The notes under the pieces are model-generated. The model saw nothing but the letters and a program-made list of their open reading frames with translations. It made no database searches and was not told where the DNA came from. The translations under genes were made by a program, and so were the position numbers. From Candidatus Edwardsiibacteriota bacterium (GTDB taxonomy: Bacteria > Edwardsbacteria > AC1 > EtOH8): DNA of 64,000 bases. The stretch covers positions 1 through 64,000 of the forward strand of contig JAGVNJ010000039.1 in NCBI GenBank assembly GCA_020053305.1, in the 5' to 3' direction. Positions 1 through 3,430 of this stretch are shown here, piece after piece. How positions within the stretch are numbered: position 1 is the first letter of the stretch; the number at the start of each line of letters is the position of its first letter.

Positions 1-17
1 CCATACCGATATGCCAT
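1..17 (-). CDS. 5' end of a gene leaving the window
   Basis: A minus-strand ATG at 17-15 begins a reading frame M-A-Y-R-Y that leaves the window after five codons. It is preceded by a clear ribosome site (AAGGAG, about 24-29) and by a good promoter at 45-73. These signals make a real gene start likely, but the product cannot be judged. Confidence 0.5.
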
Positions 18-44
18 TACCTGCTCCTTTTTTTATTACAGGCA

Positions 45-73
45 ATTATAGCATATTCAGCATCGCTTGTCAT
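45..73 (-). promoter_or_regulatory. Sigma70-type promoter for the leftward gene
   Basis: On the minus strand ATGACA (73-68) and TATAAT (50-45) are separated by 17 bases, lying just upstream of the ribosome site and ATG at 17. One mismatch to the -35 consensus and a perfect -10. Confidence 0.6.
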
Positions 74-279
74 TTCCTCCCTTATTATGACACAGTCTGT
101 GGGAGAGGGGTTTTGTAGTCCCGGCGGAAACCGGGCCACAACCGCCCAAACGGCCAAAATATAATAGCAACAAAACCAAGTTTTCCCGTTGACTTTTAAT
201 AGGGGTTGGATGTATTATTTTAAAAATGGCTATTATGCAATGAGCGTAAAATATAAGTATAGTTATTTATAAAAAATAC

Positions 280-306
280 TTGACAATGGCGTCGCAATAT
301 GATAAT
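280..306 (+). promoter_or_regulatory. Probable promoter of the HEPN/SecB-like operon
   Basis: TTGACA at 280-285 and GATAAT at 301-306, about 100 bases upstream of the first gene of the AT-rich operon. The spacer is only 15 bases, shorter than the 17 used by other promoters in the window, so the exact -10 is uncertain. Confidence 0.45.
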
Positions 307-387
307 TTGTATATACATTTGATGATTAAATATTGGAACAAGCAGAATTGTCGCCACGCTAATTTAAAAAAGCGCGGTGTTTTTTAA

Positions 388-405
388 TTTAAGTTAAAAC
401 TTAAA
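388..405. promoter_or_regulatory. Palindrome touching the start codon; possible operator
   Basis: A perfect inverted repeat with 8-base arms (TTTAAGTT and AACTTAAA) and a 2-base centre ends at the base before the ATG at 406. It occupies the place of a ribosome binding site; no Shine-Dalgarno sequence is visible. That position is typical of an autoregulatory operator or translational control site in toxin-antitoxin operons, which is inference. Confidence 0.45.
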
Positions 406-804
406 ATGAACAATTATAAAAACATATTGAGCAAAAGTAATAAAAGCTATGAAGCTGCTTGTGCTATTAATGATGGTTTAAGGGGTCAGTATTATCCGGA
501 TATTGCTATAAGTCGTTTTTATTATTCGGCACTTCAGTTAGCATGCTACACGGCTTTTATTACTGGACTTTCACCGGATGAACTATCAAATGACAAGTCA
601 CATGATGATATAATAAAACATATAAATAAACATGTAGATATAAGCATTTCGAGTTTGCTATGGCAACTAAAAAACAAGAGAAAAAAGGCGGATTATTACC
701 CTGAAGAATTTTTGCCAACCGAAGCAAACAATGTTTTGCAAGATGCACAAAGATGTAGAAGGGCTTTGACTGAATTTATTAGGAGTTTACAGAATGAGCA
801 ATAA
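406..804 (+). CDS. HEPN-domain-like protein (first gene of AT-rich operon)
   Basis: A 132-residue all-helical protein resembling the HEPN family (PF05168 type). Visible family features are a helix with RFYYSALQLACY (residues 37-48) and a later helix with RKKADY (92-97), matching the R-x-x-A-D-Y signature of HEPN proteins. Many HEPN proteins are RNases using R-x4-6-H; here no His follows Arg92 at that spacing, so catalysis is uncertain. HEPN proteins are common toxins, antitoxin-paired RNases or defence effectors. It overlaps the next gene by 11 bases, and the three-gene set is clearly AT-rich against its neighbours, suggesting transfer. No ribosome site is seen. HEPN membership is fairly likely; the role is inferred. 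Confidence 0.65.
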   Translation: MNNYKNILSKSNKSYEAACAINDGLRGQYYPDIAISRFYYSALQLACYTAFITGLSPDELSNDKSHDDIIKHINKHVDISISSLLWQLKNKRKKADYYPEEFLPTEANNVLQDAQRCRRALTEFIRSLQNEQ

Positions 805-1288
805 AATAAATGAAATATGTAATCGTATTGAAGAGGAATTTGGCAACGGCGTTATTGCTTCCACCTCAAAGTTACCGTTTCTATGCCCAGTTGAGGTTAA
901 TCCTACCATAGAAGTCTATAATATACCCGACCAATTGGTCAATGAGTTTGACAAATGGGTAATGGTTCTGTGGGAAGAATATATGACTAATAACGACTTG
1001 TTTGTTAATATAATATCACATGCTAAAAGTGCAACGGATAAATATTACCAATCCGAAGTGTCGCGTATTTTGTTTATGCGTATGCTTTCTATGTCAAGCA
1101 ATAAACATAAAATACATTCAAAATATGTTTTTAATAGTTTGGGTATTATAACAACTCTTAATAAGAAGAGGAGCTTAGGTTTTTGCACATACTCCCAAGA
1201 TATTTTTGAAAGCCAAAAGGAACCAGATGGTTATAAAACCTTAAGACTTTCTGACTGCGGCAACTATAATTATGAACTGGCTGCGTAA
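794..1288 (+). CDS. Unknown protein between HEPN-like and SecB-like genes
   Basis: A 164-residue protein I do not recognise. It has no signal peptide or membrane segment. The first ~60 residues are acidic and mixed, the middle (about 65-110) is likely helical, and the C-terminal part has two Cys and several aromatic residues. It shows no nucleotidyltransferase G-S and D-x-D pattern, so it is not an obvious MNT partner of HEPN. It overlaps the upstream HEPN-like gene by 11 bases and ends one base before the likely start of the SecB-like gene, so the three are probably translationally coupled. By position it could be the antitoxin or client of the SecB-like chaperone; this is inference from gene order only. 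Confidence 0.6.
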   Translation: MSNKINEICNRIEEEFGNGVIASTSKLPFLCPVEVNPTIEVYNIPDQLVNEFDKWVMVLWEEYMTNNDLFVNIISHAKSATDKYYQSEVSRILFMRMLSMSSNKHKIHSKYVFNSLGIITTLNKKRSLGFCTYSQDIFESQKEPDGYKTLRLSDCGNYNYELAA

Positions 1289-1289
1289 A

Positions 1290-1700
1290 ATGGATAATAA
1301 AAAACAACCCGGTATAATATTTACAGGCACAACCATAAAAAAGTTGAGCTTTGAATTAAACTCAAAATTCACACAGCCTAAAGAGCCTATACAACTTGGC
1401 GTACACCTTGAACACAAGAATAATATAATAGGCAATAAGCTTGAATGTGAATTGTATATAGAATTATTTAAAAATGTTGAAAACGCCCCTTTTAAATTAG
1501 AAATTGCATTATTGGGAATATTCGAAAAGAGTGAGCAACCCAATATGGAACTTGAGGAGTTCGGGAAAGTAAATGCACCAGCATTGATGATTCCGTATTT
1601 AAGGGAGTTAGTAGATAATATTTCAAGCAGGACATTTCTACCACCTATTTTGTTGCCACCAATTAATATTGCGGCATTTATTAACGAGGAATCAAAGTAA
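1290..1700 (+). CDS. SecB-like chaperone of a possible toxin-antitoxin-chaperone operon
   Basis: A 136-residue protein resembling the SecB export-chaperone fold. The N-terminal strand ends in KKLSFELN (residues 18-25). The C-terminal part has NAPALMIPYLRELVDNISSR followed by FLPPILLPPINIAAF, matching the SecB pattern of an inner helix and a proline-rich PP-x-x-LPP-[IV]-N tail. SecB binds unfolded preproteins; SecB-like proteins encoded next to toxin-antitoxin pairs guard the antitoxin (for example the Mycobacterium SecB-TA system). Here it is the last gene of a three-gene AT-rich operon. I chose ATG 1290, one base after the previous stop; an in-frame ATG at 1272 would add six residues and overlap the upstream gene. 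The SecB-like call is reasonable; the system-level role is inference. Confidence 0.6.
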   Translation: MDNKKQPGIIFTGTTIKKLSFELNSKFTQPKEPIQLGVHLEHKNNIIGNKLECELYIELFKNVENAPFKLEIALLGIFEKSEQPNMELEEFGKVNAPALMIPYLRELVDNISSRTFLPPILLPPINIAAFINEESK

Positions 1701-1718
1701 ATCCATAATATTAAATTT

Positions 1719-1749
1719 AAAAGCGGCTGGAGTTTCTCCAGCCGCTTTT
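1719..1749. terminator. Bidirectional hairpin terminator
   Basis: Perfect 14-base arms (AAAAGCGGCTGGAG / CTCCAGCCGCTTTT) with a 3-base loop, A-rich on one side and T-rich on the other. It separates the converging SecB-like gene (plus) and ABC permease gene (minus) and can serve both. Confidence 0.85.
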
Positions 1750-1765
1750 AGTTTTTCAATGTCAA

Positions 1766-3430
1766 TCACACCTGCATCTCTTTTATCTTCTTCAACCCGA
1801 ACCGCAAGGGAAGATACATGGCGAGGCCAGATAATAATAAAAATATCCCGAAAGAAATCACCAGGGCCTGGCCGTAGTTTATCCGATGCCGCCATTGGCT
1901 GAGGGCATACAGGTAGGCCGGCCAGGCCAGCACCACGATAGACAACGCCACATAGGCCAAGCCGGCCAAAGCCGCCAGCAGGCCGCCCAGCCCGGAGGCG
2001 ATCTTGCTGGGGTTGCGCTCCTTGAAATCCGGCATCATGGCCCCCAGGCCCAGGGTCAGGCTGGTCAGCACCAAGCACATCAGCCCCAGGCTGATATGGC
2101 TGATCACCTTCAACCCCGGCATGGTGTGCAGCAGCTGGTTGGATATCAAACTCAATGTCTCGGTCAGCACCAGGGCCACGATGATGCTGACGAAGGCCTT
2201 TTCGGCGAACAACCTGTATCCCTTGATGGGGGAGGATTTGATGAACCACAGGGTGGGCCCCTCCAGGCTAATCACCGGGAAGACGAACCGCACCGAGAGG
2301 GTGGCCAGGATGTAACCGGCGAAGGCGAAGTTGATGAAGGTGATCACTACCTTCCACATGGGAAAGGTGAAGAACATGGGGTAGCGGTGCAGGCTGCCCA
2401 GGTAGATCACCAGCAGGGAGATGAAGATCAGGCCCTGGGCCCACTGGGTGGGGTCGCGCAGGAACAGCAGGCTGTCCTTGGCGGCGATGGGAAATTTTCG
2501 GGCCCACCAGGAGGTCAGCCGGCGATTGGAGCCGTAACTCTCCATCGGGGAGCTGGTCACCCGGGTGGTCAGGCTGTTAAGATAGAACCTTTGGCTCAGG
2601 TAATAACAGAGCGAGGTCAAAAACAGGGCGGTGATGGCCAGCAGCCAGAGCCGGCCCAGGGCCGTCGAAAGCCCACCCCGCACCCCGGCCATCAGCCCTT
2701 CGGTGATCCAGGTGCTGGGCAGCAGGGGCGAATTGACCACCGCCAGGGACGACAGGTAGCTCTCCAGTTCGGGCATGGTGTTTATCTGGGCGATGGACAT
2801 TCCCTGGGGCCGGACAAAGGCGAAAAAGGCCCAGGAGGCCATGGCCAGAAAGGCTAAAAGCCCGGCCAGCAGATGCCGCAGGCTCAGTTTGGGAAAGATC
2901 CTCACCGCCACCAGCAGCAGCGAGACCGCCAGGGCGGCCGGGATGACCACGAAAGGCGGCAGCAGGGCCAGGCCCAGCAGGATGCCCCAGAGGCTGGCCT
3001 TAAGGGTCACCAGCAGGGCCACGGTCAGCGGCAGCCCCAGGATCAAGGTGGCCCAGGAACTGTAGAAGAAGGTTTTGTAAAAGCTGTATTCAAAAAGGGC
3101 CCGGGAGGGCAGGGGGGTGGACAGCAGGAAATCCACCTCCCGGGAGCGGAACAGGGTGGACAGCGAGGTTATCAGATTGCTTAAAAAAAGCATGATGAAG
3201 AAGGTCAGGAACGACGAGGACAGCAGGCGGAACAGCAGGGACCGTCCGATGTCCTCCAGGGCCAGCAGATAGGCGAACAGCCGGTGGAACAGCAGGTAGC
3301 CGCCGGCCAGGAATAATGTCATGGCGAACAGGTACGATGCCAGCTGGATGAACCGGCCCGGCCGGGGCTCCAGCAGTTTCCCAAAGGAGGCCCGCAGGGT
3401 CTGGCCATTGATGTAGAGCGGCAGGTTCAT
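1766..3430 (-). CDS. ABC exporter permease (ABC-2-like, large)
   Basis: A 554-residue membrane protein with roughly a dozen hydrophobic segments spread over the whole length. It resembles the putative ABC exporter permease families that act with a separate ATPase. The N-terminal half contains a soluble R-S-R-E-V-D-F-L-L-S-T-P-L region, the coupling-type element seen in ABC-2 exporters. Its ATG overlaps the stop of the upstream DUF4388 gene by 4 bases, so the two are co-translated. The likely ATPase partner is encoded at 5699-6427 on the same strand, separated by DUF4388 and a repeat-rich gap. The substrate is unknown. The convergent terminator at 1719-1749 ends the unit. Confidence 0.75.
   Translation of the reverse strand: MNLPLYINGQTLRASFGKLLEPRPGRFIQLASYLFAMTLFLAGGYLLFHRLFAYLLALEDIGRSLLFRLLSSSFLTFFIMLFLSNLITSLSTLFRSREVDFLLSTPLPSRALFEYSFYKTFFYSSWATLILGLPLTVALLVTLKASLWGILLGLALLPPFVVIPAALAVSLLLVAVRIFPKLSLRHLLAGLLAFLAMASWAFFAFVRPQGMSIAQINTMPELESYLSSLAVVNSPLLPSTWITEGLMAGVRGGLSTALGRLWLLAITALFLTSLCYYLSQRFYLNSLTTRVTSSPMESYGSNRRLTSWWARKFPIAAKDSLLFLRDPTQWAQGLIFISLLVIYLGSLHRYPMFFTFPMWKVVITFINFAFAGYILATLSVRFVFPVISLEGPTLWFIKSSPIKGYRLFAEKAFVSIIVALVLTETLSLISNQLLHTMPGLKVISHISLGLMCLVLTSLTLGLGAMMPDFKERNPSKIASGLGGLLAALAGLAYVALSIVVLAWPAYLYALSQWRHRINYGQALVISFGIFLLLSGLAMYLPLRFGLKKIKEMQV

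Follow-up and report, generated by a model that had tools for sequence, protein, structure and literature searches.

Toxin-antitoxin-chaperone (TAC) systems encode a toxin, an antitoxin and a SecB-like chaperone in this order, as in HigBA-SecB and CmdTAC. TAC antitoxins have been described as ending in LAA, and in the CmdTAC system the chaperone CmdC protects the antitoxin CmdA from ClpP until the T4 capsid protein triggers the system (PMC11618068). In Mycobacterium tuberculosis, the antitoxin HigA1 ends in Val-Ala, and one tail holds both its ClpX degron and the site at which the chaperone acts (PMC8165232). The ChADs of the TACs tested show no significant mutual similarity (PMC5105189), and homologues of CmdTAC combine a conserved first gene with widely variable antitoxins (PMC9519451). 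The TAC toxins described in the literature that we searched belong to the HigB, MqsR, HicA and CmdT families. A 2024 paper in Cell Host & Microbe reportedly deals with HigBAC and CmdTAC and may list further TAC toxins.

Here we analysed a 64,000-nucleotide stretch of DNA from a Candidatus Edwardsiibacteriota bacterium (the window), which opens with a three-gene operon (Table 1). The first-pass annotation had read this operon as a HEPN toxin, an unknown antitoxin and a dedicated SecB-like chaperone, and that is now the best-supported reading, based on the SecB profile, the HEPN fold and the conservation of the gene order in a second genome of the genus, G003, the three points on which that annotation had declared itself refutable. 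We hold it likely that the operon is a TAC with a HEPN-fold toxin and a chaperone-protected, degron-tailed antitoxin, from which release by ClpXP would abort infection; its function is probably abortive-infection defence.

Table 1. Features of the operon and its flanks (positions in the window)
Feature	Position	Strand	Remarks
Promoter-like element, genus-wide	154..223	+	core TTGACT-N18-TATTAT at 187-218; copies in congeners
Inverted repeat, 8-bp arms, by first ATG	388..405	.	not beyond chance
Gene 1, HEPN-T type protein, proposed toxin	406..804	+	132 aa; R92..D96-Y97, conserved H66
Gene 2, orphan protein, proposed antitoxin with proposed C-terminal chaperone-addiction and degron tail	794..1288	+	164 aa
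Codons of GNYNYELAA, near-copy of own-genome tmRNA tag GNYNYALAA	1259..1285	+	ARAGORN on tmRNA locus L029
Gene 3, SecB-like chaperone	1290..1700	+	136 aa; closest defence models CmdC (PD-T4-9_C)
Bidirectional terminator hairpin, right edge of variable insert	1717..1751	.	common to permease locus of three congeners

The first and third genes of the operon

The operon had been described as three overlapping or abutting A+T-rich genes with no ribosome site before the first, and this description holds. All three genes are co-directional, genes 1 and 2 overlap by 11 bases, and GC content is 0.33-0.34 in each of them as against about 0.49-0.64 in the following kilobases. By inspection of the sequence, gene 1 has no Shine-Dalgarno, and gene 2 is preceded by AGGAG at good distance. 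The start of gene 3 was set at ATG 1290 and not at 1272 because the G003 homologue aligns from 1290. The window begins at a contig end (G000:C36, G000 being the source genome), and its positions 1-110 are repeated at the extreme ends of two other G000 contigs and five times in G006; the contig break therefore probably coincides with a repeat, which may be mobile.

In order to place protein 1, for which the first-pass annotation claimed a resemblance to HEPN, we relied on structure. An AlphaFold model built from a two-row alignment had a mean pLDDT of 85.8 and a pTM of 0.81. The leading Foldseek rows with this model were HEPN proteins, the best being 2hsb (AF0298; TM 0.72) at E 0.022, with all other E-values worse. 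VIA-align also placed 2hsb first, with a Z of 15.0 and an rmsd of 2.6 over 119 residues, at a sequence identity of 18-20%. For helical bundles a VIA-align Z under about 13 can be unspecific; two rows score higher, 2hsb and 2q00, and PMC3710099 counts both among the HEPN-T structures. By sequence, protein 1 itself has no HEPN match in a Pfam search, and a HEPN sequence profile found no match in the PDB at E <= 10; its G003 homologue passes PF05168 with 27.7 bits (cut-off 22). Together with this homologue, the model bears out the claimed resemblance, and protein 1 as modelled has the helical fold of the HEPN superfamily.

Two details of the early description could be read directly. The R-x-x-A-D-Y reported at 92-97 is R92-K-K-A-D-Y, and the usual catalytic His is indeed missing, protein 1 having no Rx4-6H and no His at the motif place in the alignment. 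The ten genomes of the phylum hold 16 PF05168 matches, in seven of them. We aligned protein 1 and its homologue with 10 of the 15 other matches (four were not included and L022 was omitted as incomplete); R92 is present in 12/12 of these proteins and H66 in 11/12, and D96-Y97 is shared by the G003 homologue and four of the ten phylum proteins. In Table 1 of PMC3710099 (Anantharaman et al.), several HEPN-T proteins have D in place of the motif H, and Rx4-6H is not universal in the superfamily. According to the same source, HEPN-T proteins of the AF0298 type retain the R but not the motif His, and a conserved His further upstream is a possible alternative active site. Protein 1 displays this combination, with R92 kept, the motif His missing, H66 conserved N-terminal to it and 2hsb as best fold match. 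By analogy with the proposal for the AF0298 type, we propose that H66 may offset the missing His; given the absence of Rx4-6H, protein 1 could also be catalytically dead. Small as the phylum is, it has many HEPN-MNT pairs (L013-L024), and the MNT motif is present in 9 of the 12 HEPN loci examined; the exceptions are the G003 operon (L019), L018 and L022.

The last protein, said to resemble SecB, matches PF02556 with 51.7 bits (cut-off 26, 1.1e-13) in a Pfam profile search, and thus a SecB-family chaperone is encoded in the same operon, by a gene overlapping or abutting its neighbours. Its best PADLOC models are those of PD-T4-9_C, that is CmdC, the CmdTAC chaperone (PDLC04072, 2.6e-11). When the protein and its G003 homologue were combined in a sequence profile, export SecB proteins (1fx3, 5.1e-10) came out as the closest solved structures, and the SecB of the M. 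tuberculosis TAC (5mtw) lies far lower in the same search (0.41).

The first-pass annotation also suggested looking for this gene order elsewhere, and it does recur, though once and in the same genus. G003 carries a second three-gene operon at another locus, beside umuDC-like genes (judged by eye), which encodes a 128-aa HEPN protein, a 156-aa orphan ending SYCKAA and a 139-aa SecB. SecB was found in two of the ten phylum genomes, and both copies stand third in the order HEPN-x-SecB, and therefore the pairing is unlikely to be due to chance. Between G000 and G003, the HEPN pair is 30% and the SecB pair 28-29% identical, both above all 500 shuffles. Apart from the G003 protein, relatives of protein 1 were absent from plasmids, phages, viral contigs and genome contigs (tblastn and pattern scans). 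Likewise, no relative of protein 2 was found in plasmids (tblastn) or viral contigs; the tblastn of P0007 covered plasmids. No second HEPN TAC was found outside the genus by single-protein and alignment scans of viral and genome contigs or by tblastn of plasmids and phages; pattern-based scans require near-exact short stretches and may miss relatives. The evidence base is thin, consisting of two operons from one genus.

These findings also bear on the possibility that the operon is a metabolic or export module, in which SecB would be an export chaperone and its neighbours clients or accidental. Gene 3 is the only SecB of its genome, and the chaperones of TACs are able to stand in for the SecB of E. 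coli (PMC5105189), both of which would suit such a role. However, eight of the ten phylum genomes have no SecB, so that export there needs none, and the AT-rich, foreign composition, the return of the HEPN-x-SecB order at a different locus in G003 and the CmdC models as closest defence matches all argue against it; we consider this explanation very improbable.

The middle protein and its C-terminal tail

The middle protein, called unknown at first, has no convincing family in Pfam, NCBIfam, PADLOC or PHROGs, and a Pfam-level family search gave no match to HigA, MqsA or HicB. Its single-sequence structure model had a pLDDT of 34 and was discarded. We rejected an MNT-like antitoxin as the identity of gene 2, the nucleotidyltransferase motif (GS-x8..12-SDxD) being absent from window 1-1800 and from L010 3901-5400. 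Homology between the middle proteins of G000 and G003 is unsupported: the observed score was equalled or beaten by 232 and 467 of 500 shuffles when aligned locally (z about 0) and by 17 and 85 of 500 when aligned globally (z 1.0-1.9), and the MAFFT alignments were set aside.

The last nine residues of protein 2, GNYNYELAA, are 8/9 identical to the tag GNYNYALAA of the tmRNA of its own genome, found by RF00023. A DNA pattern allowing either form of the tag has four matches in the ten genomes, namely the tmRNAs of G000, G001 and G003 and gene 2, and a reversed control pattern has none in the same genomes. Random draws from the composition of protein 2 reached at least five of six identities with GNYNYA in 4 of 2,000,000 cases. 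At the DNA level, the first 14 bases of the tail (GGCAACTATAATTA) are identical to those of the tmRNA tag and 23/30 bases agree overall, synonymous and other changes following after the identical stretch; this likeness is suggestive of a capture of the tag as DNA by gene 2, though not decisive.

Because the ending is a near-copy of the host tag, we read the C terminus of protein 2 as a ClpXP degron; it probably acts as one, as in other TAC antitoxins, and so the C-terminal ClpXP-type degron of a TAC antitoxin is found here on the basis of sequence. ClpX is encoded in all ten phylum genomes and full-length ClpP in nine, the source genome included; G009 (89% complete) has a distant ClpP fragment only. 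The SspB adaptor was rejected as reader of the tag, none being found in 10/10 genomes. The proposed antitoxin role of protein 2 is drawn from its position between toxin and SecB and from its tail.

An alternative assignment of roles has to be weighed at this point, in which the middle protein would be the toxin, regulated by HEPN and SecB, and protein 1 would bind RNA or serve as an adaptor without catalysis. Protein 1 lacks the His of Rx4-6H, a non-catalytic action is possible for HEPN proteins that have lost the motif (PMC3710099), protein 2 is an orphan and the CmdTAC toxin alone is not highly toxic (PMC11445053), all of which would fit. Nevertheless, the degron-like tail and the place before SecB suit an antitoxin, as in the six other loci compared below, and H66 and R92 are conserved in protein 1. 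In addition, G000 and G003 resemble each other more in the first protein than in the middle one, as is reported for CmdTAC with its variable antitoxins (PMC9519451). We therefore judge this exchange of roles unlikely and keep to the HEPN protein as proposed toxin and protein 2 as proposed antitoxin.

We compared the tail with those of the middle proteins of six other SecB-adjacent three-gene loci (L003, L004, L007, L009, L047 and L048); a seventh SecB locus (L008) has no TAC-like neighbour. On two Acinetobacter plasmids (L003 and L004) the middle proteins end ANDDEYLLAA, and a Thiodictyon TAC-like middle protein ends ANEEPFPLAAS. On the Polaromonas plasmid pW10NP1 (L047 2211-2489) the ending is AANDERFALAA, to all appearances an entire tmRNA tag of the proteobacterial kind; ANDERFALAA is presumably a Burkholderiales tag, and a text search of the literature found no paper with it. 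The middle protein of phage contig L007 ends SEDYFAAAA and that of phage Turba SYAYAA. Four of these six tails resemble proteobacterial tags over at least 6/10 residues and two are unlike them. The two TAC-like operons on the Acinetobacter plasmids adjoin a gene annotated as a member of an abortive-infection family.

Universal host-matching of TAC tails was rejected by this comparison: just 5/8 reach at least 6 identities with the host or host-class tag, a count in which two are near-identical Acinetobacter plasmid genes, the extra final Ser of Thiodictyon is ignored, and the Polaromonas, Acinetobacter and Thiodictyon tails are scored against published tags (PMC12493166, Table 1). The tails below this threshold are those of phage contig L007, phage Turba and G003, the last matching its own tmRNA tag at only 3/9 positions; the Val-Ala end of M. 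tuberculosis HigA1 (PMC8165232) also speaks against universal matching. A tentative idea, which we find doubtful, is that the tail of the antitoxin arose by capture of the host tmRNA tag or by selection for a copy of it, and that such host-matching is common among TAC antitoxins (AANDERFALAA in Polaromonas, ANDDEYLLAA in Acinetobacter, GNYNYELAA in this phylum). If true, TACs would be wired into trans-translation, with a chaperone client site that resembles every ssrA-tagged protein. If stalled ribosomes suddenly produced many tagged proteins, these could then titrate the chaperone away and set the HEPN toxin free, and RNA cleavage by HEPN would yield more tagged proteins. The question raised is whether the tail is tuned to the host degradation tag and whether tagged proteins are able to trigger the switch.

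The upstream element and the variable site

The first-pass annotation placed a perfect palindrome and a promoter upstream of gene 1. The palindrome is TTTAAGTT-AA-AACTTAAA, two 8-bp arms around an unpaired centre, and arms of 8 arose in 32 of 300 dinucleotide shuffles of 181-405; being within chance, it was rejected as operator evidence and the description as perfect does not stand. The promoter stands in part: a generic scan gave what chance would give (11 versus 8.8 +/- 2.7 expected), but the promoter-like core at 187-218 is conserved. The surrounding element of ~66 bp has six other copies in the genus, 82-91% identical, three in G001, two in G002 and one in G003 (L055 1439-1510, 6305-6364 and 7185-7248; L056 1683-1748; L057 1884-1953; L058 2078-2149), every one of them upstream of an ORF. 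In G001 the three copies precede an MTase-REase fusion and two AT-rich genes that were not identified; the two of G002 precede genes for a SIR2-TPR and a TPR protein, and that of G003 precedes an MTase-REase fusion near Shedu-like and GajB-like genes. In 4/6 copies the gene directly downstream is recognised by PADLOC. Several defence-type genes of the genus are thus preceded by one promoter-like element, which may be a promoter or operator that defence genes have in common. The distance from element to operon is ~180 bases in the window versus ~20-100 bases in the other copies. Just below the element, this ~180-base leader holds a five-codon frame (MAIMQ) at 226-243, which may be nothing. The defence cluster around the G003 copy (L058, G003:C5:448500-453000) comprises, besides the MTase-REase fusion, an NTPase whose C-terminal domain is Shedu (SduA) and a fragment of a GajB-like helicase.

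At the other end of the operon, the strong terminator that had been claimed was located (Table 1). Three congeners have it next to their orthologous permease, so it counts as chromosomal, and it could act on both strands; the permease itself is matched in 10/10 genomes. Past this shared terminator, the site (window 1718-1750; orthologous sites L038, L039 and L040 in the congeners) varies in content: the TAC operon in G000, an AT-rich TIR-effector-like gene in G001 (PADLOC 1.9e-10), an AT-rich PADLOC-TPR gene in G002 and DNA of ordinary GC in G003.

The same mechanism could also serve a stress-response or addiction TAC that is not anti-phage, its trigger being protein stress or loss of the element. 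Type II toxin-antitoxin modules can serve the stability of mobile DNA, which would favour such a role. The M. tuberculosis TAC is stress-responsive (PMC6377645, PMC8165232), and this would favour it too, whereas anti-phage activity has been reported for two TACs in E. coli (PMC9519451). The genomic setting also weighs against it, with the shared element upstream of restriction, SIR2 and PADLOC-TPR genes and a variable site that carries the TIR-effector-like gene in G001 and the PADLOC-TPR gene in G002. Altogether, we regard a stress or addiction role as rather improbable and favour the anti-phage TAC.

Proposed mechanism and relation to known systems

Under the anti-phage reading, the HEPN protein would be a ribonuclease toxin, which the orphan protein would bind and silence. 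The C terminus of the antitoxin would double as docking site of the SecB-like chaperone and as ClpXP degron, and the antitoxin would be stable as long as the chaperone covers the tail. Once the chaperone is drawn off, the likeliest cause being a phage protein made in large amounts, as in CmdTAC, the tail would be exposed and ClpXP would destroy the antitoxin; the freed HEPN toxin would then cleave RNA, stop translation and abort the infection. The sequences and models themselves show the gene order and its recurrence, the HEPN fold, the SecB membership, the degron-like tail, ClpX and ClpP in the genome and the setting; toxicity, RNase activity, inhibition, chaperone dependence and the trigger are what we infer.

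CmdTAC (PD-T4-9) of E. coli is like this operon in its toxin/antitoxin/SecB-like chaperone order, in its chaperone, whose models gene 3 matches, and in its highly variable antitoxin, which ends in LAA (PMC11618068). It differs in its toxin, CmdT being an mRNA ADP-ribosyltransferase and gene 1 encoding, as modelled, a HEPN helical bundle; PADLOC gave no match, and thus no CmdT-type toxin, for genes 1 and 2. The classical HigBA-, MqsRA- and HicAB-SecB systems have a chaperone-addicted antitoxin with a C-terminal extension to which gene 2 can be likened (PMC5105189), but other toxin and antitoxin families. HEPN-MNT (HepT-MntA) pairs, of which the phylum has many, share the HEPN-fold toxin; in contrast to them, this operon has no nucleotidyltransferase motif (nor has that of G003), places the toxin first, lacks Rx4-6H and has a SecB partner. 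The best structural match of gene 1 is 2hsb. We know of no TAC context for 2hsb. In its residue pattern, too, gene 1 follows the AF0298 HEPN-T type, in which the motif His is replaced (PMC3710099).

The first-pass annotation knew of no described system with this gene order. This part does not stand, the order being the standard TAC order, but a HEPN toxin in a TAC is undescribed in the literature that we searched, and the same search, which covers subscription papers poorly, found no full tmRNA-tag copy in a TAC antitoxin. If the reading is true, a HEPN toxin joins the toxin-antitoxin systems under chaperone control, and does so in a small phylum, represented here by 10 genomes; and with a tail that is a near-complete copy of the host tmRNA tag and not a bare LAA, the question 'why LAA?' becomes testable. 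As compared with known systems, the TAC architecture is already known, and the novelty lies in the HEPN toxin, the orphan antitoxin and the near-complete tag copy.
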